From the IMG/VR virus record IMGVR_UViG_3300043331_002276, positions 1-25,378 of that record: a DNA stretch of 25,378 nucleotides. The stretch is one strand, 5' to 3'. The translations under genes and the position numbers were made by a program. The notes under the pieces were generated by a model that saw only the letters and a program-made list of their open reading frames with translations, made no database searches and was not told the origin of the DNA. Below are positions 3,761 through 16,275 of this stretch, piece after piece. The stretch's first letter is position 1. Each line of letters begins with the position of its first letter. This stretch comes from a virus.

Positions 3761-3937
3761 GTGATAACTATTCTTCCAGATGAGAGAAAGCGGATCGAGG
3801 CCCTCGCATTGCGTCTTGGGCCGCCAATTCCAGGTAACATAAGCATCGTCGCCTGGTCACTTCCTTTGCTGGAGGCTTTAGTCGATCGAATCGACGAGCT
3901 GGAGAGGAGACTCGATGAAGCCAATCGACGCAAGTAA
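3761..3937 (+). CDS. Small coiled-coil protein, 58 aa
   Basis: GTG start preceded by GAGGAGGCTTAC, an excellent ribosome binding site placed just after the stem-loop. The product begins VITILPDERKRIEALALRLGPP and ends with a heptad-like helix (LPLLEALVDRIDELERRLDEANRRK). Its last 23 nt overlap the start of the ParB/methylase gene in another frame. It is short and I recognise no family. The strong start signal and coupling to the methylase gene support it as real. It may be a small oligomerising partner. Confidence 0.55.
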   Translation: MITILPDERKRIEALALRLGPPIPGNISIVAWSLPLLEALVDRIDELERRLDEANRRK

Positions 3938-5243
3938 GGTCGTCGTCCCCGAGAACCGCTTTCGCCGTAAGTTCGACGAGGCCTCTATGCGCGAGCTCAA
4001 GGCGTCGATCGAGCGAAACGGCCTTTACCATCCGATAATAGTCGAACGCAACGGCGACGGCTGGACCCTCCGCGCAGGGGAGCGACGGCTCAAGGCCTTG
4101 TTGGAGATAATCGCTGAAGGCAAGAACATCAGCTACGGCCCGTCAACCTTCCTCGGCGGGGTCATTCCAGCGCTTGAGTTTGGAGAACTCGATGACCTAC
4201 AACGCCTTGAAATCGAGGTCGAAGAAAATGTGGTTCGAAGCGACTTCACGTGGCAGGAGCGAACAAAGGCCCTCGCAGCCTTGCACAAATTGCGAGTCGC
4301 TCAGAACCCGGCGCAGACGATTGCTGCTACCGCCTCGGAGGTATTGGGCAAGCCGGCTGTTGGCGACCAGCGGATGGTCGTTTCGGACGCGATTATTGTC
4401 TCAAAGCATCTTGACGATCCCGAGGTCGCAAATGCAAAGAGTGAGAAGGACGCAATTAAGGTTATCCGCAAGAAGGCAGAAGCAATCCACCGTGCTCGAC
4501 TTGCCCTCAAATTTGATAAGAGCCAAACAAGGCACAATCTTATTCGCGGGGACACTCTTCAAATCCTCCCGACGCTTCCTGATGAGAGCTTCGACGTTAT
4601 ACTGACCGATCCGCCTTACGGCATTGAGGCTCACGCGTTCGGCGAGATGGCTTCAACCGGGCACGACTATAAGGACAGCGAGTCGAACTGGAAGAACCTC
4701 TTCTCGGAGCTGCCGGATCAGCTGTTTCGCGTTGCCAAGGCACAAGCCCACTGCTATCTGTTCTGCGATATCAGACGGTTCGAAGAACTCAAGACGCTGA
4801 TGGTGCTCGCAAACTGGACGGTCTTTCAGACGCCGCTTATGTGGAACAAGGGCGGCTCCGGCATGCTACCTTGGCCAAAGCACGGGCCTCGCCGCTGTTA
4901 TGAGGCCATTCTCTACTGCTGGAAAGGCGATCGGGAGACACTATGCGTAAAAAGCGATGTGATCGACAAGATTCCACCTGTCAAAAAGCTCCTCCACGGA
5001 GCACAGAAGCCGGCGGCACTCTATTGCGAACTGCTCTCGCGCAGCGCCAACCCTGGAGATACCGTGCTCGACTGTTTTGCCGGCACAGGACCGATACTAG
5101 TCGCAGCTAATCGGATGCAGCTCACTGCGACCTACATCGAGATCGACGAAACGGCTTACAACATTGCCCTCGGGCGTTCAACCACAGGAGAGTTCGATGA
5201 CGGAAGCGTCGAAGACGACGGACTCGGTGATGTCCCAGTATAG
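3915..5243 (+). CDS. ParB-like domain/DNA methyltransferase fusion, 442 aa
   Basis: Residues 1-120 match a ParB/Sulfiredoxin-type N-terminal domain: PENRFRRKFDEASMRELKASI, then HPIIVER, the AGERRLKA box (54-61), and EVEENVVRSDFTWQERT (101-117). Residues about 205-425 are an amino-methyltransferase. The catalytic DPPY is at 232-235, HGAQKP at 361-366, and the SAM-binding FAGTG at 388-392 after GDTVLDC. DPPY precedes FAGTG, the beta-class order typical of N6-adenine or N4-cytosine methylases. No restriction endonuclease lies beside it, so it looks like an orphan phage methylase that could shield phage DNA from host restriction. The ParB-like domain is probably a DNA-binding or nuclease-like module. 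The gene overlaps the small coiled-coil gene and the MazG-like gene. Confidence 0.9.
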   Translation: MKPIDASKVVVPENRFRRKFDEASMRELKASIERNGLYHPIIVERNGDGWTLRAGERRLKALLEIIAEGKNISYGPSTFLGGVIPALEFGELDDLQRLEIEVEENVVRSDFTWQERTKALAALHKLRVAQNPAQTIAATASEVLGKPAVGDQRMVVSDAIIVSKHLDDPEVANAKSEKDAIKVIRKKAEAIHRARLALKFDKSQTRHNLIRGDTLQILPTLPDESFDVILTDPPYGIEAHAFGEMASTGHDYKDSESNWKNLFSELPDQLFRVAKAQAHCYLFCDIRRFEELKTLMVLANWTVFQTPLMWNKGGSGMLPWPKHGPRRCYEAILYCWKGDRETLCVKSDVIDKIPPVKKLLHGAQKPAALYCELLSRSANPGDTVLDCFAGTGPILVAANRMQLTATYIEIDETAYNIALGRSTTGEFDDGSVEDDGLGDVPV

Positions 5244-6198: not shown

Positions 6199-8586
6199 GT
6201 GCCAGTCAAAACACGCTCCTCTGGCCCTTGTCCTGCCGAGTGGATGGGTGTCGGCGAGGCGCCAGGCGCCGAGGAAGAAGTTCAAGGTGTGCCCTTCGTC
6301 GGACAAAGCGGACAGGAACTGACCAGAATGTTGCACGACGCGGGGCTCATCCGCGAAGAGGGCTATCTCGCAAACGTCTGCAAATACCGCCCGCCAGAGA
6401 ATAAAATCGAGGCCTTTTTTCTTGACTCGAAAATGACCAAACCTAACGAGCTCATCCAGGAGGGCATTCGTGAGCTTCGTGAGGAAATCCAGCGCGTTCG
6501 CCCGAAGATAATTGTGGCATTTGGCGCTGTGCCTATGTGGGCCCTGACCGGTCAGAAGGGCATCATGAAGTGGCGCGGCTCGATGCTCGAATACGAGGAC
6601 AACGGATTCAAAGCGTGCCTGATGCCCACTTATCATCCTGCGGCTATCATGCGGGAGTGGGCATGGCGTAGCACCGCCGTTCATGACCTGCGCCGCGTAA
6701 AGCGCTGTCTCGATGAGGGCAGCTGGCCAAAGCCCGGTTATAAGTTCCTCTTGCGCCCATCTTTCGAGGACACGATGGATGTGCTCGGAACTCTACTGAG
6801 ACGGGCAAACGACGGACCTTTATCGCTGGCTTCGGATCTTGAAACGAGAGCAGGATTTGTTGCCTGCCACTGTATCGCGTGGTCGTCGACTGAAGCAATA
6901 TCCATCCCTTTCATGTGCGTCGAGCGGCCCACGGGATACTGGACCCTCGACCAGGAAACCGTTATTTGGGAGCGACAACGCGCCCTACTTACCCATCCAA
7001 ATGTCAGTGTCGCCGGACAAAACTATCTCTATGATTCGCAGTATTTCGCCCGTCGCTGGGGATATATCCCACGAGTCATAGATGACACGCTGATCATGCA
7101 AAACGTAGCCTTTCCAGGGCAGCCACGCGACCTCAGCTTCTTGTCGTCGATGTATCGAGGCTATCACAAATACTGGAAAGATGAGGGCAAGAATTGGAAC
7201 CACTCGATGCCAGAAGATCAGCTCTGGTCATATAACTGCGTCGACGGAGTCGCCACGTTCGAGTGCCGCATCGCATTGGAAGGCCTGCTACGGGCACTCG
7301 GTCTCTGGGAGCTCTATCGCTTCCAGATGGAAGTCTGGTATGTCGCTCTTGAGATGATGCTCCGCGGAATCAAAATAGACACCAAGAAGCGCGGAGCAAT
7401 GGCAGGACAGCTCATCGAAGCCATGACCTCGCGCGAAGCCGACCTGGCATTTATCCTGCGAGCACCACTGAATGTGCGCTCGCCGAAGCAAGTCCACTCG
7501 CTCTTCTACGAGCAAATCAAATGCCGAGTCATAAAGGACCGCAAGACCCGCAAGCCAACTTGCAACGACGACGCTATGGAAGTCTGGGCTCGAGAGGAGC
7601 CGCTCCTGAGGCCGCTCACTCAGCTGATCGCCGACGTTCGCTCTATCGGCACCGTTCTTTCGAACGTTGTAAAGGCCGAGCTTGACCTCGACGGTAGGAT
7701 GCGCAGCTCGTTCGACCCGGCGAAGGAGACCTTCCGCTGGAGTTCAAGCGAAAACGCTTTCGGCGGAGGCTGCAATCTACAGAACTGGACGAAAGGCGAC
7801 GAGGACAAGGAGAAAAGCGCACTGCGTCCGGGGCAAGCCATAATCCCCAACGTCAGGAAGCTTATTGTTCCTGATGAAGGCTGCGAGATCGCGTCGCCCG
7901 ACTTGACTGGAGCGGACGCACAAACTGTCGCATGGGAGGCAGATGATGCAGACCTCAAGCGAGTTTTTCGAGAGAATAAGGTCAAAATTCACGCTTACAA
8001 CGCAATGGCTGTTTTCAAAGATAAGGCCCCCACAGGTTACGAACAGCCTTACTATGATTATATCAGGACAGGGGTGCACCTGGTTAATTATGGAGGCAAA
8101 GCCGCAACTTTGGCTGGTGCTCTTGTCACTTCCGAATGGGAAGCTCAAGGTTTCATTGATTACTGGTTCCGCCTTCATCCTGGTATCAAAGACTGGCACG
8201 ATCGCATCCAGTCTGAACTCAATCGAGCTCGATGCATCTATAACGCCTTTGGATATCGCCGGTTCTATTTTGACCGAGTTAAGGACATTCTACCGGAAGC
8301 TCTTGCGTGGATCGGCCAGTCAACGACGGCTTGCATCACAAATCGAGCACTTGTTGCGCTCCGCCAACAACACGAGCTTCTGAACGACTTGCAGATTCAG
8401 CTGTTGCTGCAGGTCCACGACGAGATCCTCTTTCAATATCCCATCCGCTACCGCGAGCAAGTCCTCCGTGCAGTCCGACCTATAATCCACATCCCAGTTC
8501 CATACAAAGACCCGCTTGTCATTCCTTGGGGCTTGAAAACCTCCGAGGTTTCATGGGGCGACTGTCATAAGCGCGACTGGCCCTAA
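6199..8586 (+). CDS. UDG-like/family A DNA polymerase fusion, 795 aa
   Basis: GTG start directly after the previous stop. Residues about 14-170 match the uracil-DNA glycosylase superfamily, family 4/5-like: GVGEAPGAEEE (17-27), GVPFVGQSGQEL (30-41), NVCKYRPP (59-66) and TYHPAAIMRE (144-153). Residues about 205-360 are a 3'-5' exonuclease: D213/E215 in SDLETR, N275 and D279 in GQNYLYD, and Y345...D349 in YNCVD. Residues about 370-795 are the polymerase: motif A SPDLTGADAQ (D568), motif B from R623 to Y631-G632, and motif C HDE (740-742). No 5'-3' exonuclease domain is present. It should be the replicative polymerase. The UDG-like part keeps the active-site motifs but lacks the four-Cys iron-sulfur set of classical family 4 enzymes. 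Confidence 0.9.
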   Translation: MPVKTRSSGPCPAEWMGVGEAPGAEEEVQGVPFVGQSGQELTRMLHDAGLIREEGYLANVCKYRPPENKIEAFFLDSKMTKPNELIQEGIRELREEIQRVRPKIIVAFGAVPMWALTGQKGIMKWRGSMLEYEDNGFKACLMPTYHPAAIMREWAWRSTAVHDLRRVKRCLDEGSWPKPGYKFLLRPSFEDTMDVLGTLLRRANDGPLSLASDLETRAGFVACHCIAWSSTEAISIPFMCVERPTGYWTLDQETVIWERQRALLTHPNVSVAGQNYLYDSQYFARRWGYIPRVIDDTLIMQNVAFPGQPRDLSFLSSMYRGYHKYWKDEGKNWNHSMPEDQLWSYNCVDGVATFECRIALEGLLRALGLWELYRFQMEVWYVALEMMLRGIKIDTKKRGAMAGQLIEAMTSREADLAFILRAPLNVRSPKQVHSLFYEQIKCRVIKDRKTRKPTCNDDAMEVWAREEPLLRPLTQLIADVRSIGTVLSNVVKAELDLDGRMRSSFDPAKETFRWSSSENAFGGGCNLQNWTKGDEDKEKSALRPGQAIIPNVRKLIVPDEGCEIASPDLTGADAQTVAWEADDADLKRVFRENKVKIHAYNAMAVFKDKAPTGYEQPYYDYIRTGVHLVNYGGKAATLAGALVTSEWEAQGFIDYWFRLHPGIKDWHDRIQSELNRARCIYNAFGYRRFYFDRVKDILPEALAWIGQSTTACITNRALVALRQQHELLNDLQIQLLLQVHDEILFQYPIRYREQVLRAVRPIIHIPVPYKDPLVIPWGLKTSEVSWGDCHKRDWP

Positions 8587-8616: not shown

Positions 8617-9867
8617 ATGTCCAAGCGATTCCATAATGACTGGCTCAAAGCCTTCGTCACATTCGCGAGCTTTGGAGAAGCACCTCTCAAGATGCTTTAC
8701 TGGGCAGGCGTTAGCACGCTTGCTGGTGCTCTTCGCCGCCGCGTCTGGATCGATCAGGCTTATTTCCAGTGGATACCGAATTTCTACATCATCTTTGTCG
8801 CTCCACCGGGAATCGTCTCGAAGTCGACCACAGCCAACATCGGGATGAACCTGCTCAGGGCACTGAAATATATAAAGTTCGGCCCTGACGTCATCACCTG
8901 GCAGGCTCTGGTCACCAGTCTAGCAAAAAGCACCGAGGCGGTGCAGTCGCCCTCTGGCGAGTTCCGCTCGATGAGCGCGGTCACCTTTTGCAGCGACGAG
9001 CTCGGCAATCTTCTCAATCCTAACGACCGCGATCTGATTGATGCCCTCGTCACCTTGTGGGACGGCAAACAGGGCGCGTTCAGCAAGGAGACGAAAACGT
9101 CCGGTAGTGACCGGATTGAAAATCCCTTTGTTAACATCATTGGCTGCACGACACCCGCTTGGATCAGCGGGAACTTCCCGGAATACCTGCTCGGCGGCGG
9201 GTTCACCTCACGCTGCGTATTCCTCTATGCTGATCTGAAGCGCCAGCTCGTTCCTTACGTCGACGAGGCTGTGCCGAAAGACCTCGAGGTTTTCCGCTCG
9301 CAGCTCGTCCACGACCTCGAGATGGTCTCTCAGCTCTATGGACAATTCGAGCTAACAAGCTCCGCTCGCGACTGGGGCAAGCGGTGGTATTTGGACCACT
9401 GGAAGAAGAAGCCGGACGAGATCAGAACTGAACAGTTCGAGGGCTATATGGCCCGCAAGCAGACACATTTACACAAGCTTGCAATGGTCCTGAGCGCGAG
9501 CCGCCGCGATACGCTGATAATCCGCGAGACCGACATTGTTGAGGCCGCGGACATGATCACTGCGCTCGAAGAGGACATGCCGAAGGTCTTCGCCCGCATC
9601 GGCCAGACGGATATAACGCGCGGCAGCGCGGAAATCATCGCTGCCGTCGACAGTGCGCCTGGGATTACAATGACAGCCCTCTACAATAAGCTCTTCCGCA
9701 CGCTGAACCACGAGGACTTTCAGAAGGCGATTGCCGGTGCGCTGGCAACGCAAAAGATCCGCTCCGTCGGCAGAGAAGACGGAATTCACTATTATCCCAT
9801 CTCCAAGTCGGTGCCGGAGAGCCACCTCGATGAGCAATCGAAAGATCGAAAAGCTGGCTCAAGCTGA
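8617..9867 (+). CDS. Replicative helicase-like AAA+ ATPase (DUF3987-like), 416 aa
   Basis: ATG 8617 is the only usable start after the in-frame stop of the polymerase. Its ribosome binding site is weak. An atypical Walker A is at residues 62-71 (APPGIVSKST) after strand NFYIIFV. A Walker B-like FCSDELG has Asp-Glu at 127-128. The strand VNIIGCTTP (172-180) could hold sensor 1, and GGGFTSRC (193-200) may hold an arginine finger. The layout resembles phage DUF3987/primase-C-terminal-type helicases. It is placed directly after the DNA polymerase, so it is probably the replication helicase, but I see no primase domain and no DnaB-type full motif set. The C-terminal 90 residues look like a helical winged-helix-type domain (TMTALYNKLFRTLNHEDFQKAI). 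Confidence 0.7.
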   Translation: MSKRFHNDWLKAFVTFASFGEAPLKMLYWAGVSTLAGALRRRVWIDQAYFQWIPNFYIIFVAPPGIVSKSTTANIGMNLLRALKYIKFGPDVITWQALVTSLAKSTEAVQSPSGEFRSMSAVTFCSDELGNLLNPNDRDLIDALVTLWDGKQGAFSKETKTSGSDRIENPFVNIIGCTTPAWISGNFPEYLLGGGFTSRCVFLYADLKRQLVPYVDEAVPKDLEVFRSQLVHDLEMVSQLYGQFELTSSARDWGKRWYLDHWKKKPDEIRTEQFEGYMARKQTHLHKLAMVLSASRRDTLIIRETDIVEAADMITALEEDMPKVFARIGQTDITRGSAEIIAAVDSAPGITMTALYNKLFRTLNHEDFQKAIAGALATQKIRSVGREDGIHYYPISKSVPESHLDEQSKDRKAGSS

Positions 9868-10051
9868 GGGCTTCTGCTGCCTCTGGGCCTTCTTTCGGGC
9901 CCACGAGAAGACCAGTACGAGCGACCTGCGCAAGCTCCTCGAACGGGGCTGCACGAAACGCGCCTTACAGCAACAGCGTGCTCGCTATCGCGACGAACAG
10001 TATCATTGTGAGGAGAATGAGAAATGCCTTCGCCGAAAGCATCAGCGATAG
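9830..10051 (+). CDS. Small basic protein, HTH-like, 73 aa
   Basis: ATG 9830 with CGGAGAG upstream, and it overlaps the helicase gene by 38 nt. The product (SNRKIEKLAQAEGF, then CLWAFFRAHEKTSTSDLRKLLERGCTKRALQQQRARYR, and a Cys/Arg/Lys-rich tail) is basic and helical. The segment TSTSDLRKLLERGCTKRALQQQR could be a helix-turn-helix, so DNA binding is plausible. It is the last gene of the plus-strand module, and its final 10 nt overlap the 3' end of the giant minus-strand gene. No family is recognised. Confidence 0.6.
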   Translation: MSNRKIEKLAQAEGFCCLWAFFRAHEKTSTSDLRKLLERGCTKRALQQQRARYRDEQYHCEENEKCLRRKHQR

Positions 10052-13000
10052 CTCTCGCGAGTCTCTTCGTGAAGTGGCCGAAAACGCTTCTCTGGCGCGC
10101 GGCCTTGTTCAACAAACCGCTTGCGCTTCTCGCGGCTCTGCATGCTGCGAGCGATTTCGGCTCCAGTAATCCGCAACTCCCGATGCTCCGCGGGAATCGA
10201 AGCGTTGTAGTCTGAAACGGCCTTGCGGGCATCCGCCTCGGCTTCGCGGTCCTTCTGCCAGCGGGCACGCCAGACATCGTCGAGCAGCTTTTTCCTTCGG
10301 CCTTGCCAATACATCTGCTGGTCGTATTGGTCGAAACGAATCTGCCGATTCTCCGAGACGATGGTTGGATTCAAGCCAAAGGCCTTGCCAACGATCTCCG
10401 CTGCTGTCAAGTCGCGGACCTTGCCCGTCTCCTTGTCGATGGTAATAAGCGACCCATCGCTCGCGCGGACTCCTTGCTGATCCCAGCGATACGCATTATA
10501 GATGTTGCCGATTCCGCCTGGGAGGCGCTCGAAAGCTTCCGCAATCGTCTTATCCCCCGTGAGAGCGCCGAGGGCAAACTTCAAGAAGCCTCCGGCTGGG
10601 CCTGCCATGTCAAGCACGAGGTCTCCCACCTGCTCCTCTGGGTCTGCCCGCGGATGCGCTATGACGTCAGTCCCAGGTACAAAGCGCCCGAAGCCGATAG
10701 ACCGAGAGATGTCATATCCGGCCAGATTATACCCGAGTCCGTGCGCGGCAAGGCCCGGCGACAACCAGTCGATCTCCAGCGACTGGACCATTTCCCGCAG
10801 CTTCTTACGAACCGGCTCGCCGTCGCCAAACTTGCGCCACAAGCCCTGGAGAAGATCAATCAGGTTCTCCGCCCCCGGCAAGCCTTCGTAGCCCGCCAGC
10901 AGAAGCGTCAGAATCCAGATTTTCATCGTGTAGCCGCCCAGAGCGGTGCGAGGCGCTTCTCCTCGCACCGCTGCCGCTCTACGCTCACCAAGCTCATAGC
11001 CGCCGTAGCTATGAAAGGCCATGTGCTGCGCGAAGCTCATGAAGATGGTCGCCAGCGGCATGATGGGCCCAAGATGCAACGCATTGCCTCGCATAAAAGG
11101 CACTCGATTGCCGTGCGAGTAGTCATTCATCAGAATATTCGTCCGCCGAACTGCCTCGTCGTAAGGATTCGTCAGCTCTTCTGACGGATGGTCCTTAGCG
11201 GCCTCAAACTGAGCCAAAAAGGCAGCGCGCCGCGAGGAGAGCTCGGTCAACCTGAAAGGCCACATCGCAAGGTCAACGCCAGCTCTGCTGATCCGCGAGA
11301 ACAGGTTCCCGGCTGGCATCCTCCACAACGTTCCAGCATTGGCCATGCCTGCGAGGTGGTACGCATAGCTTTGCGACAGCACGCCCTCCTCGAGAGCTTT
11401 CGCCAGCGCAGCCTTCGTTTCTGGATCCATCCAGCCGAGATCGCGGGCAGCGTTCAGGTCCTCGAGTTTAAGGCTTGAAATCGCCTGGGCCATTGCCTTG
11501 AAGAAGCGTCGATTGCCCTCGGCTTGCCCAAAACGAGTTGTGAGGTCAGACCAGGCAGTTACCAATCCATAGAAGTTGATAACCGCGGTCTTGACATTCA
11601 GCCCGAGATACATTATGGAAACGCCTGTGCGCAGCGCTTGCGCCTCATTCTCAGGAGCCATAATATAGTCTCGGGCATCCTGCATCGCTCCTTTTATCCT
11701 GTGCAGCTTCTCCGCCTCATCGAGCGACGCCGGCTCTTGCGAGTATTGTGCGCGACGCAGCTCGGCGTCGACAACTCGAATCGCCGCATTAAATTCCGAC
11801 CGATATTGCAGCTTCGCAATAAGGTTCGCGTTGTGCCAGGTAAAGGCAGCGAAGCTCCGCAACGCGTCTGCGCTGTAGCCTTTAATCCGGAGCCGTTCGA
11901 GGTCGTATTGCTTCAGCGGTCGTTCGACCTTCGATGGTTGAAGCAGTTCCATCAGTCGTTCAACTTGCGACTGCTCCCCGTTTGGGCCGAGTTCGTCGCT
12001 GAGGCCAAGCTCACTCGCTGCAACATCGACGAAGTCGAGTGGCAAGCCCAGCACGACATGCTCGCGGTCAGTCAGTTCGAATTTCCTGATCCTCTCATCC
12101 GGCTTCGCCCGCGACGTAGCCTTATTGAAGGCCTCTTCCCACTTGTCGCGGCTCTCGAACGACTCTTTGTAGACCGTTTCCCAGCCAGGCCCGAACGCCT
12201 TCTTACGTTGAATCACCAGCACCATGTTACCGAAGTGACCGCGCGGGAAAAAGGGAGACCTGCGAATCTGCATAATGGCGTGCTTCATAGGCTTCATCGA
12301 GGCAAGAAGCACGTCTGGCCCGCTCGAGGCGTATCGATTCTTGAGGATTGTTTCGAGCGCCTTTTCGAGGCCGTCGATCTGTGTCATCAGGGCGTTCTTT
12401 GCCGCCAGTACGTGGCCGGCCAACTCCTCGCCCTCGGCAGTCGATATGTCGATCCCTCGAGCTTTCAGCTCCGTTTCCGCTCTTTGGCTCATCGCATAGC
12501 GATAGCCGCCGGTTGGAGCCTTCTGAATATCGAACCACAGTTCACCCCCGTCGAGTTCGTCGTTTAAGACTTTTCCGATTTTCGCTGCGTTTTCCTTGCC
12601 AAGGAATGGCGACGACCACTCACGAATAACGCTGTCGGCTGGCGCTTGCAGCCGGCTCTTCGTAGTGTTGTATCCGGTGTTGCGCTCAACGAACATCTGA
12701 GCGCCTTCGACCTCAGGATGCAGGTGCGCGAGCTGTTGTATCTGCAGCGTGTGTGGGGCAAGCCGTTGAGCTCTGCGAAGCGCCCGCCTCAGCGGCTTTA
12801 TATCGAGAAGCCAGTTTTTGACCCCGTTAAACAGCTTGCTCGCACCTGCGCCTTCCTCTCGCGCGAGGTCGAAGTCGGTTTCGAAGCGGAAATTGTCGCT
12901 CCTTGAAAAGGTCTTCGCTCCAAGAAGGCTCTTAACCTGATTCGGATGGAAGGCAACATAGCTCGTGTCGCCCTCGACAATATTATCGTAGACGAGACCG

Positions 13001-16000
13001 TCATAACCCTTGGAGACAAGAAGCTTTCTGACGGAATCGAAGCGATTGAAGTATAGTATGCCTACATCTTGTCCACCTGGACGAGTCAGATAGAGATTGT
13101 CTGCCTTGGAAAACTCCGCAAAGGCGTGCGTAAACTCCTCCTGTGTAGCAATGCCACGATCTCGGAGGTAATTCAAAACTCGCATCGGACGAGTCCAGTA
13201 GCCGCCGTCTTCTCGACCAATATGGAGTGGGTTTCTAAGATTGAGCACTGTTGGAACGAAGTAGACACCTGAAACGAACTGAGCTCGCTGCGTCTCGCCA
13301 AGGACATCTTCCTCACCAATTTTGGCAAGTTCCTCGTGCATCCGCTCGACAGTGGGTCGTAAAGGTTGAAGACCTTCTACTCCAAGAACAAGGTTCGCCT
13401 TGCGGACATGTGCCGCTCGCAGCGTGCCGAAGTGAAACCCGAGGTCTCCGTATTGAAAAGTGTCAAACCCCTCTGGTGTCTCAACGCGTGTCTCAGTCGC
13501 ATGCCACAGAACCAACGGAGTGCCTTCCTGCGACACGACCTTACTGGCATTCTCCTTGTCGTTCTCCCAGTCGCCGAACCACGCCTTGAAGTACTTCGAC
13601 TTGAACTGTTTCTCTTGCCACTCGCGAGCGGCGTCGGCAAGCACGCTGGCATTCTTCGTTTGATCTTCCGGTATGCCAGCTCGTAGCACTCCGAGGTTAA
13701 TTGTCCAAAACTTCTTCGTCTCTTTTGGAGCATCCGTGTCCAGTTCGAACTTAGCCGTTTTGCCAGAGAGCTGCGCAAACCGCTCGAGGAACGCTTCCCA
13801 GTCCTTGTCGCGGACGAAGCCAAGAAGCTCCTTCATCTCCTGCCCGTTCGCCTCGATTGCACCTGTCCTGACGAGATTTGTCGTCAGCAGTCGAGCTTGC
13901 TTCGCCTTGCCCTCGTCGGTATCCGTCTCGACGTTGTGCTGGACCTTTTCGATTCGAGGCTTTGCCTTTTTCGGCTTTGCCTTCGGAGCAGTTTTCGCGA
14001 GCTCTTTCGGCTTCCTCTCGCCGCCGCGCAGCTTGCTCTCGCTGATCCGCTGCGGCTCCCGCGCAGCTTTGTCGATCTTGCTGAGGCCGGCAAGCCACTC
14101 GCTGAAAGCAACTCCAGGTCGAATAACGCCATCCCGCTTAGCGTCAACGAAGAACTTGCGCAATGCCGCCAGGGCGTCACTGAAAAACCTGCCCAATGGA
14201 GTTTTCTGGTCCCATTTTTGAGCATACGCCGCCCGAGCCATCTGCTCTGCAAGATACTCGTCAACACCGAAGTATTCGTTTTTCGTCTTCTGCCGCAACG
14301 CGCGGATAGCCTGCCGACCAAGACCCTCCTTGGTAGCCATATCCGTCTGGCGGTTGACGATTGCTTTCAACACGTCCAGCCCAGGTGCCGTCGAAGCAAC
14401 GCCGAGTTCGTTCAGGAATTCTCGCCCGAGCTTTGCCGGGCCAAGCCATTGGTCAGTCAGTTCTTGAGCATTAATAGTGCCACCGATGAGACGAGATTTG
14501 ATCGAGTTGAATTCTCGAGCAACCGCTGCACGATCCTCAGGCAGCTGCGAAATTAAATCTTCTGGGATTATTCCGGATTCGCTCGCACGACGGATCGCTC
14601 CGGCAAGCTCTGGCTGGAGATCACCGAAAAAGCGATCTCCAATAAGAGCGTGGCCAAACTCATGCGTAGCGTTGTAGAAAATGCCTGCCTGAGTATTCTT
14701 ATTGAACTGTCCAAGCCCCTTCTTGGGACTGCGCAGCACCGCGGGAACGAAAAAGTGTTTCCCTGGCTCACTCATGTAGTGCAGTCCCAGGGTGGTGCCC
14801 GTATCAAGCGATTCGTTAGCAATAACGAAGGTTGCATTCGGAAGGTGCTTCTGCCGCCACTCCTCCATTGTCTCGTAATAGGCTGTCAGCATGTTGCCGG
14901 GCCGATCTTCAGATTCGACACCGAGTAGATACGTCCCCGGCTTGGGCATTACCTGCCGAGGCGTCTTACCGACAGCATCCGGATCGGTAGCCGCAATGAA
15001 GGTTCTGTCCCAACGATCGACTTGGTCGTTCTCGTTAAGCCCAGCGTACTTCAGGTGTTTCGCCGCCTGCCGCTGGGTTGCGCCATATTCGCTGACATCC
15101 GTCCCAATCTCTCCTGTATTCGCCGCAAGGACAGGTGTCCACGCTGGACCCGCCTCTGGCAAGTTCGGCGACTGCCTTGCAGCTTCCGCTGTCGCGACCT
15201 TCACCTTTGCCTCTGCGACTTCCTCTTCCGTCAGCAGGTCTGCGTCAATCGACTTGATCAACGCATCAATAGCTACGGACTGGTCCGGAGGCAGCGGAGT
15301 CGACGGCTGGTCAAAAGGCAGCGGGGCCTGAACTGGCGCTGGTTGAGAGGGTTCCGATAATGGCACATTACCGCCACCCTCTACTTCAGCTCCTGCTGGT
15401 CCCAGCGCGCGATGCGTCGCTGCACCGGCTCCGGCCAGCAACGGTGTCGAAACGGCTACTGAGCCGAGCGTGTCGAGAATGTCCTGGCCGTATTCCTTCC
15501 AGGTCATTTCTGGCCTCGTGCTCATTTTCGCGTTCGCGCTTTGGACGGCGGTCGTCAGCGCTTCCGTATAGCCTTCTCGCAGATACGTTCCTGCGATAAG
15601 CTTCAACACTGGCCCACCGAGGTTGTCCAATATAAACTTCGTTGGAATCATCTCGAACACGGCTTCCGCTGTGGCATCCACCGCAGCATGAGCAGCAGCT
15701 CTCGCTTCCGGCAGCCCGGCTGCTCGTGTTTCCGCATAGGTTTCGCCACCTTGAATTGCTGCGGCCGCTCCTACAGGGGCAATCGCCGCGGTGCCTGTTG
15801 ACGCCCCTCGAGCCTTCATCGCAGCGCCAAGCACGAGTGGTGGAATCTGCTGGGCAACCGACGAGGTGCCGCTAAGCACGGCTCGTTGCCAAAAGCTCAT
15901 GTCTCCAGGAGAGGCTTCTTCTAGACGCATCTGGCCTGTTTCGGCTATGCCGGCCCCAGCAGTCGCCAGCCCCTTCTCGAGTTCCGTGCGTTCTCGCTCG

Positions 16001-16275
16001 AGTCTTATACCAGCAGCCTTCGCCCCGAGCTTTATGCCAGCAGCTACGGGCGCCAGCACAGGATGCATCGCCGCGAGACTGGCCGGCTCCTGTTCTGCAA
16101 GCGCTCGCAGCACGCCGCCAACACCTTTCTCGACACCACCACGAGCAGTGGCCGGTATTGCAGCGACGGTTCCACCCCAGGTGGCTGCGCCGTATTTCTT
16201 CAGCGCAGCCGAGATCTCGTCGTCGCTGGCGTCGTCAGGAAAGCCGTATTCGTTGCCTTCGAAGGTGATTATCAT
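10042..16275 (-). CDS. Giant polyvalent ejection protein with metallopeptidase and ADP-ribosyltransferase domains, 2077 aa
   Basis: The ATG overlaps the preceding stop (ATGA). The N-terminus (1-300) is Ala/Gly-rich with hydrophobic helices. Residues about 380-690 hold a zinc metallopeptidase: HEFGH at 538-542, and E677 in EYLAEQMAR as a candidate third ligand. Residues about 890-1115 match the ADP-ribosyltransferase domain of phage polyvalent proteins: FKAWFGDWE (896 on), LVLWHATE (H925), GFHFG (~949), then GYDGLVYDN and SYVAFHPNQVKS. The C-terminal 900 residues contain helical and hydrophobic stretches (YLGLNVKTAVINFYG ~1555, MKIWILTLLLAG ~1784) and GGFLKFALGAL...RLPGGIGN, typical of large podophage internal virion proteins. 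It likely enters the host with the DNA, like T7 gp16, and may act on cell wall or host proteins. Confidence 0.85.
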   Translation of the reverse strand: MIITFEGNEYGFPDDASDDEISAALKKYGAATWGGTVAAIPATARGGVEKGVGGVLRALAEQEPASLAAMHPVLAPVAAGIKLGAKAAGIRLERERTELEKGLATAGAGIAETGQMRLEEASPGDMSFWQRAVLSGTSSVAQQIPPLVLGAAMKARGASTGTAAIAPVGAAAAIQGGETYAETRAAGLPEARAAAHAAVDATAEAVFEMIPTKFILDNLGGPVLKLIAGTYLREGYTEALTTAVQSANAKMSTRPEMTWKEYGQDILDTLGSVAVSTPLLAGAGAATHRALGPAGAEVEGGGNVPLSEPSQPAPVQAPLPFDQPSTPLPPDQSVAIDALIKSIDADLLTEEEVAEAKVKVATAEAARQSPNLPEAGPAWTPVLAANTGEIGTDVSEYGATQRQAAKHLKYAGLNENDQVDRWDRTFIAATDPDAVGKTPRQVMPKPGTYLLGVESEDRPGNMLTAYYETMEEWRQKHLPNATFVIANESLDTGTTLGLHYMSEPGKHFFVPAVLRSPKKGLGQFNKNTQAGIFYNATHEFGHALIGDRFFGDLQPELAGAIRRASESGIIPEDLISQLPEDRAAVAREFNSIKSRLIGGTINAQELTDQWLGPAKLGREFLNELGVASTAPGLDVLKAIVNRQTDMATKEGLGRQAIRALRQKTKNEYFGVDEYLAEQMARAAYAQKWDQKTPLGRFFSDALAALRKFFVDAKRDGVIRPGVAFSEWLAGLSKIDKAAREPQRISESKLRGGERKPKELAKTAPKAKPKKAKPRIEKVQHNVETDTDEGKAKQARLLTTNLVRTGAIEANGQEMKELLGFVRDKDWEAFLERFAQLSGKTAKFELDTDAPKETKKFWTINLGVLRAGIPEDQTKNASVLADAAREWQEKQFKSKYFKAWFGDWENDKENASKVVSQEGTPLVLWHATETRVETPEGFDTFQYGDLGFHFGTLRAAHVRKANLVLGVEGLQPLRPTVERMHEELAKIGEEDVLGETQRAQFVSGVYFVPTVLNLRNPLHIGREDGGYWTRPMRVLNYLRDRGIATQEEFTHAFAEFSKADNLYLTRPGGQDVGILYFNRFDSVRKLLVSKGYDGLVYDNIVEGDTSYVAFHPNQVKSLLGAKTFSRSDNFRFETDFDLAREEGAGASKLFNGVKNWLLDIKPLRRALRRAQRLAPHTLQIQQLAHLHPEVEGAQMFVERNTGYNTTKSRLQAPADSVIREWSSPFLGKENAAKIGKVLNDELDGGELWFDIQKAPTGGYRYAMSQRAETELKARGIDISTAEGEELAGHVLAAKNALMTQIDGLEKALETILKNRYASSGPDVLLASMKPMKHAIMQIRRSPFFPRGHFGNMVLVIQRKKAFGPGWETVYKESFESRDKWEEAFNKATSRAKPDERIRKFELTDREHVVLGLPLDFVDVAASELGLSDELGPNGEQSQVERLMELLQPSKVERPLKQYDLERLRIKGYSADALRSFAAFTWHNANLIAKLQYRSEFNAAIRVVDAELRRAQYSQEPASLDEAEKLHRIKGAMQDARDYIMAPENEAQALRTGVSIMYLGLNVKTAVINFYGLVTAWSDLTTRFGQAEGNRRFFKAMAQAISSLKLEDLNAARDLGWMDPETKAALAKALEEGVLSQSYAYHLAGMANAGTLWRMPAGNLFSRISRAGVDLAMWPFRLTELSSRRAAFLAQFEAAKDHPSEELTNPYDEAVRRTNILMNDYSHGNRVPFMRGNALHLGPIMPLATIFMSFAQHMAFHSYGGYELGERRAAAVRGEAPRTALGGYTMKIWILTLLLAGYEGLPGAENLIDLLQGLWRKFGDGEPVRKKLREMVQSLEIDWLSPGLAAHGLGYNLAGYDISRSIGFGRFVPGTDVIAHPRADPEEQVGDLVLDMAGPAGGFLKFALGALTGDKTIAEAFERLPGGIGNIYNAYRWDQQGVRASDGSLITIDKETGKVRDLTAAEIVGKAFGLNPTIVSENRQIRFDQYDQQMYWQGRRKKLLDDVWRARWQKDREAEADARKAVSDYNASIPAEHRELRITGAEIARSMQSREKRKRFVEQGRAPEKRFRPLHEETRESYR

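Follow-up and report, generated by a model that had tools for sequence, protein, structure and literature searches.

The Polymerase Locus

The window analyzed here, a stretch of 25,378 bases, is a fragment of an uncultivated virus. On its plus strand, an open reading frame at positions 6199–8586 starts with GTG, carries AAGGA 8 bases 5′ of this start codon, and encodes a single protein of 795 amino acids. Pfam identifies in it a uracil-DNA glycosylase (UDG) domain (PF03167, E 1.5e-25, residues 11–157), a 3′–5′ exonuclease (PF01612, E 2.2e-5), and a family A DNA polymerase (PF00476, E 4.7e-27), in the same order as in polymerases of the SPO1/phiLo kind. The initial annotation had read these three parts in one frame, and this is confirmed. 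According to Pfam and alignment the exonuclease covers about residues 201–375 (6799–7323, plus strand), followed by the polymerase domain (7324–8583, plus strand), which was also found by structure search. D213, E215, D279, and D349 of the exonuclease and D568 and D741 of the polymerase do not vary in any of the 53 rows of the full-length alignment. The full-length predicted model gives full-length matches to other phage polymerases, with TM about 0.8. The protein is the replicative polymerase of the phage.

The neighborhood of the gene is conserved. Locus comparison places the gene for a ParB-N/DNA methyltransferase protein (3915–5243, plus strand; Pfam) upstream of the polymerase in 69 of 88 loci, and a DUF3987/primase-like gene (8617–9867, plus strand; Pfam, phrog_14296), which in the window follows the polymerase directly, downstream in 81 of 88. 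In these 88 loci, many of which are cut, the neighbor genes all lie on the same strand as the polymerase. A Sak4-like gene is also a neighbor in the window. In the upstream protein, which adjoins the polymerase in most relatives, a ParB N-terminal domain is fused to the DNA methyltransferase. On the minus strand, positions 10042–16275 contain an open reading frame of 2077 amino acids.

Fold and Pocket of the N-Terminal Domain

The UDG-like domain occupies about residues 1–178 (6199–6732, plus strand), as delimited by Pfam, structure search, and NCBIfam. In a sequence search of solved structures its top match was the Thermus family-4 UDG 1ui0 (E 2.2e-20). Because structure searches of PDB with the whole model were swamped by the polymerase part, the UDG part was folded separately, from a 29-row alignment, with a pLDDT of 93.7. 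This model superimposes on family-4 UDG 1ui1 with Z 24.5 and 1.4 Å over 161 aligned residues at 37% identity. The same model scores lower against UdgX (Z 21–23), family 5 (2d3y, 17.1), and TDG (about 16–17). The domain thus takes the family-4 fold and not an unrelated one; of the "family 4/5-like" assignment proposed earlier, the first half is upheld and the second is not. At NCBIfam the family-4 model TIGR00758 gives 105.9 bits, below its curated cut-off of 125.3. Membership in UdgX was considered as well and is not supported (TIGR03914, 73.9 bits against a cut-off of 189.95). The full-length model is confident over the whole length of the protein (pLDDT 93, pTM 0.90), which suggests a fixed position of this domain on the enzyme.

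The domain carries the family-4 motif set GE[AG]PG, stacking Phe, Asn, and HP[AS]. In the alignment to 1ui0, the four pocket residues E41, F54, N80, and the histidine of motif II correspond to E20, F33, N59, and H146, and all four are present. Motif I, GEAPG, begins at residue 19 (6253–6267, plus strand); PFVG, with the uracil-stacking F33, begins at residue 32 (6292–6303, plus strand); and motif II, YHPAA, with the catalytic H146, begins at residue 145 (6631–6645, plus strand).

None of the four cysteines that bind the 4Fe-4S cluster is found in the window protein. The N-terminal CxxC is missing, the ligand C84 is replaced by Y63 in the segment that also contains N59 and C61 (6373–6387, plus strand), and C100 is replaced by G89 (6463–6465, plus strand), a Gly in most of the group. 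The only cysteines within residues 1–186 are C11, C61, C140, and C170. The initial annotation was right that the full set is missing, while its tentative count of C11 and C61 toward that set does not hold: C11 sits in a segment without CxxC, and C61 lies two residues ahead of the ligand position. A CxxC hidden in frame upstream of the GTG was considered and rejected. The upstream frame has no such motif, and an in-frame TAA stands immediately before the GTG, so the missing motif is not encoded there. The known family-4 UDGs of T. thermophilus (1ui0/1ui1), T. maritima, and S. tokodaii share fold and pocket residues with the window domain, but they are stand-alone proteins with four Fe-S cysteines, whereas the window domain is fused and has none of the four.

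Known Fusions and Their Range of Forms

Fusion of a UDG to a polymerase is already known from SPO1 gp31 and phiLo; what we add is the comparative evidence. An N-terminal UDG domain has been described in the polymerases of SPO1 and Shbh1, and a processivity role was suggested for it (PMC5135824). These phages belong to another group than the window and have an intron in the polymerase gene. SPO1 gp31 matches PF03167 (E 3.1e-22) and, like the window protein, is a UDG-exonuclease-polymerase fusion without the Fe-S cysteines; its pocket, however, is mostly gone (QENPF, F replaced by M, N replaced by S), while that of the window is intact. Two surveys of viral PolA (PMC6302109, PMC9069017) do not mention UDG domains.

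The polymerase of Thermus phage phiLo has been solved (PDB 9qhs, "phiLo family-A DNA polymerase with modified template", released 2026-03-25); a literature search for a paper on this structure found none. It has, like the window protein, an N-terminal UDG on a family A polymerase, and the UDG parts match with Z 16.7. Judged from the PDB title and the sequence, it differs from the window's protein of 795 amino acids in its length of 1142 amino acids and in its four cysteines. These stand at the expected places in the protein read from the phiLo genome, together with the pocket motifs GEAPG, PFIG, TNV, and NHPS.

The fused forms range widely. A complete family-4 domain with four cysteines is found in ctfzr933, ctLwi270, and phiLo, and the cysteines are also present in vir526. 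Pocket-bearing forms without the Fe-S set include the window, Microcystis phage Mel-JY34, and phage ctMlz233. The latter two share the architecture and gene neighborhood of the window, have kept the pocket and lost the Fe-S set, and have polymerases about 42% identical to that of the window. In ctMlz233 an in-frame upstream CxxC was taken as chance, as the protein has no third ligand and the motif precedes the start codon matched by alignment to relatives. The Desulfofustis phage, Vibrio phage VS-ABTNL-3, and SPO1 have pocket-less forms. Pseudomonas phage Almagne has the reverse combination, with four Fe-S cysteines present and the pocket lost. Set against the pocket-bearing forms without the cluster, it indicates that Fe-S set and pocket can be lost separately.

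Retention of the Domain and Decay of Its Pocket

A scan of viral contigs with the window protein as single query gave no matches, but IMG/VR scans with alignment queries recovered hundreds of relatives (475 in one scan, 338 in the scan with the exonuclease/polymerase part only). For counting retention, loci were picked by the exonuclease/polymerase part alone, to avoid selecting on the UDG itself; the set consisted of these loci, the window, and three hits in bacterial assemblies. The UDG domain lies in the same open reading frame in 80 loci and in an adjacent one in 3, and the sole exception is truncated by the end of its contig; as similarity to the window set the ranking of the loci, such fractions are not frequencies in nature. 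Every complete polymerase found by its polymerase sequence alone has kept the domain. The same domain order is present in other phages, namely those of the SPO1/phiLo kind, Mel-JY34, and ctMlz233. In five loci (L004, L005, L009, L190, and L194) the polymerase is split, with the UDG-bearing and polymerase parts in separate reading frames and sometimes other reading frames between them; Kuura, Vibrio VS-ABTNL-3, and ctLwi270 are examples of split polymerases.

How far has the pocket been preserved in a domain so constantly retained? The full E/F/N/H set is present in 36 of 78 non-redundant UDG domains. The four-cysteine Fe-S set occurs in none of the group among these 78; the lone row with four cysteines, L247, comes from a bacterial assembly and is only distantly related (23% identity). 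In the full-length alignment H146 is kept in 31 of 53 rows (58%) and N59 in 38 (72%). Where the catalytic His is missing, S, T, A, P, N, D, or Q stands in its place, and the surrounding P-T-Y-x-P motif is otherwise clear. The pocket has been retained in L169/L014 (77%) and L094 (68%), the window's nearest relatives. The initial annotation had named loss of the uracil pocket in close homologues as evidence against its proposal; such loss is found across the wider group and not in these closest members.

Other residues of the domain are better kept than H146 and N59: W125 in 98% of the 53 rows, R157 in 94%, W114 in 92%, and W154 in 87%. The best-conserved stretch of the domain is WRGS at residues 125–128 (6571–6582, plus strand). 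W114, W125, W154, and R157 are group-specific, being absent in canonical four-cysteine members, and their conservation makes them candidate docking residues.

On the polymerase-only tree, parsimony gives 14 changes of the His state, and a quicker tree with outgroups gives 16. When branches with less than 95% bootstrap support were collapsed in the polymerase tree, the His had still been lost independently at least 11 times, where lost children of one polytomy were counted as one, no regain was allowed, and His was taken as ancestral, as in the four-cysteine outgroups. In pairs of which both members lack the pocket (L176/177, L237/238, L212/221, L204/209, and L237/241), dN/dS of the UDG domain is 0.04–0.18, slightly above that of the polymerase and far below 1. 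A domain that is kept after loss of its pocket, and at such low dN/dS, must have a job independent of the glycosylase site.

Function of the Domain

Universal retention, repeated loss of catalysis, and purifying selection together favor a structural or DNA-holding role. In our view the UDG-like domain is probably a docked, non-catalytic module of this kind in the replicative polymerase. An ancestral family-4 UDG would have been joined to the polymerase N-terminus. This group of phages would have lost the Fe-S cluster, and catalysis would have become dispensable, with the UDG fold retained as a module docked, as the predicted model suggests, rigidly on the enzyme. The module would most likely bind DNA beside the exonuclease and polymerase, and would help to keep the enzyme on DNA (processivity) or stabilize it. 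Three functions were initially proposed: uracil recognition, tethering of the polymerase, and uracil removal at the fork. The best fit is a tethering or supporting role. As the pocket has been lost across the wider group, uracil sensing or removal cannot be the shared function. The window and its nearest relatives have nevertheless kept all pocket residues, for which a purely structural role has no need.

Vaccinia D4 offers a likeness, as a UDG-superfamily protein in the service of a viral replicative polymerase, although, unlike the window domain, it is a separate protein of UDG family 1 that works with a family B polymerase. D4 acts as a processivity factor as well as a UDG (PMC10253040). 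By analogy, D4 and the SPO1-type domain may be regarded as precedents for a processivity role.

It appears unlikely that the domain is an active glycosylase at the fork, excising uracil from replicating (or host) DNA without an Fe-S cluster. E20, F33, N59, and H146 are all in place, the model lies 1.4 Å from an active family-4 UDG, the pocket survives in 36 of 78 relatives, and fused relatives with four cysteines and the pocket are known. But the cysteines are lost in the window, the repeated losses of the catalytic His have left the domain under purifying selection, and we reason that excision of template uracil would produce an abasic site ahead of the polymerase.

Archaeal family B polymerases recognize uracil by reading ahead of synthesis and are a model for a sensor, in which the pocket would bind uracil uncut and stall or direct the polymerase. 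The intact pocket of the window and its nearest relatives and the apparent docking of the domain in the predicted model would suit such a sensor. The Asn that determines uracil specificity is lost in 15 of 53 relatives, however, which argues against this function across the group, and overall we regard it as quite improbable. The earlier idea of a polymerase with its own uracil sensor thus applies at most to the window member, which, with its intact pocket, may retain residual uracil binding or excision. Uracil handling is probably optional and is not what selection preserves group-wide. Pocket-bearing and pocket-less members offer a direct test of the processivity proposal for the SPO1-type UDG domain.

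An altered pocket might also recognize a modified pyrimidine of the phage's own DNA. SPO1 has a dUMP hydroxymethylase gene near its polymerase, and thymidylate synthase-type genes adjoin the fusion in Almagne (L011) and ctfzr933 (L008); neighbors of these types hint at modified DNA in Almagne and ctfzr933. The title of the phiLo structure also names a modified template. Against this, the only gene of the kind identified in the window is a methyltransferase, with no base-modification gene found, and the diversity of the pocket substitutions fits relaxed constraint and not a new specificity, so that this explanation seems very improbable. That the domain is a vestigial passenger without function, as the decay of the pocket in many lineages could suggest, is hardly credible given that no complete polymerase lacks it and its dN/dS is far below 1.

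A Possible Shrunken UDG-Like Domain in T5-Like Polymerases

The N-terminus of the T5 polymerase (L249:101-520) and of its relatives L251–L255 looks like a shrunken UDG-like domain. The region ahead of the T5 exonuclease, about 136 residues, is blank in Pfam. It aligns to the second half of the UDG profile (VILVGAEPF...GI.DYTGKRVE...ISPAQL), and hhalign gives a probability of 90.8%, E 1.2e-6, and a score of 46.0, where 200 column shuffles reached 24.7 at most. Against the profile of the window group alone (A7) the probability is only 37.5%. A UDG-like domain in T5 is thus a strong lead from profile comparison, although not settled.

It is conceivable, if somewhat short of an even chance, that in phage family A polymerases, across a very large class of them, a captured UDG fold has become a permanent, non-catalytic module for holding DNA. 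The series would run from Fe-S glycosylases (phiLo, ctfzr933) through Fe-S-free forms with a pocket (the window) to pocket-less forms, and would reach the shrunken N-terminus of T5. Nature would thereby display, step by step, how a repair enzyme can lose first the Fe-S cluster and later the active site, yet stay a constant part of a replicative polymerase.

Variation in the Polymerase Active Site

The polymerase part of the group has unusual residues of its own. At the steric-gate position (E. coli Glu710) an Asp is found group-wide (D573 in the window, 7915–7917), and position 762, for which surveys give Phe, Tyr, or Leu, is His in all 53 rows (H627, 8077–8079). The combination of Asp and His may represent a rebuilt sugar pocket. 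In the O-helix of the window (residues 619–623, 8053–8067) Tyr takes the place of R754 and Arg that of K758, while most relatives have R and K there.
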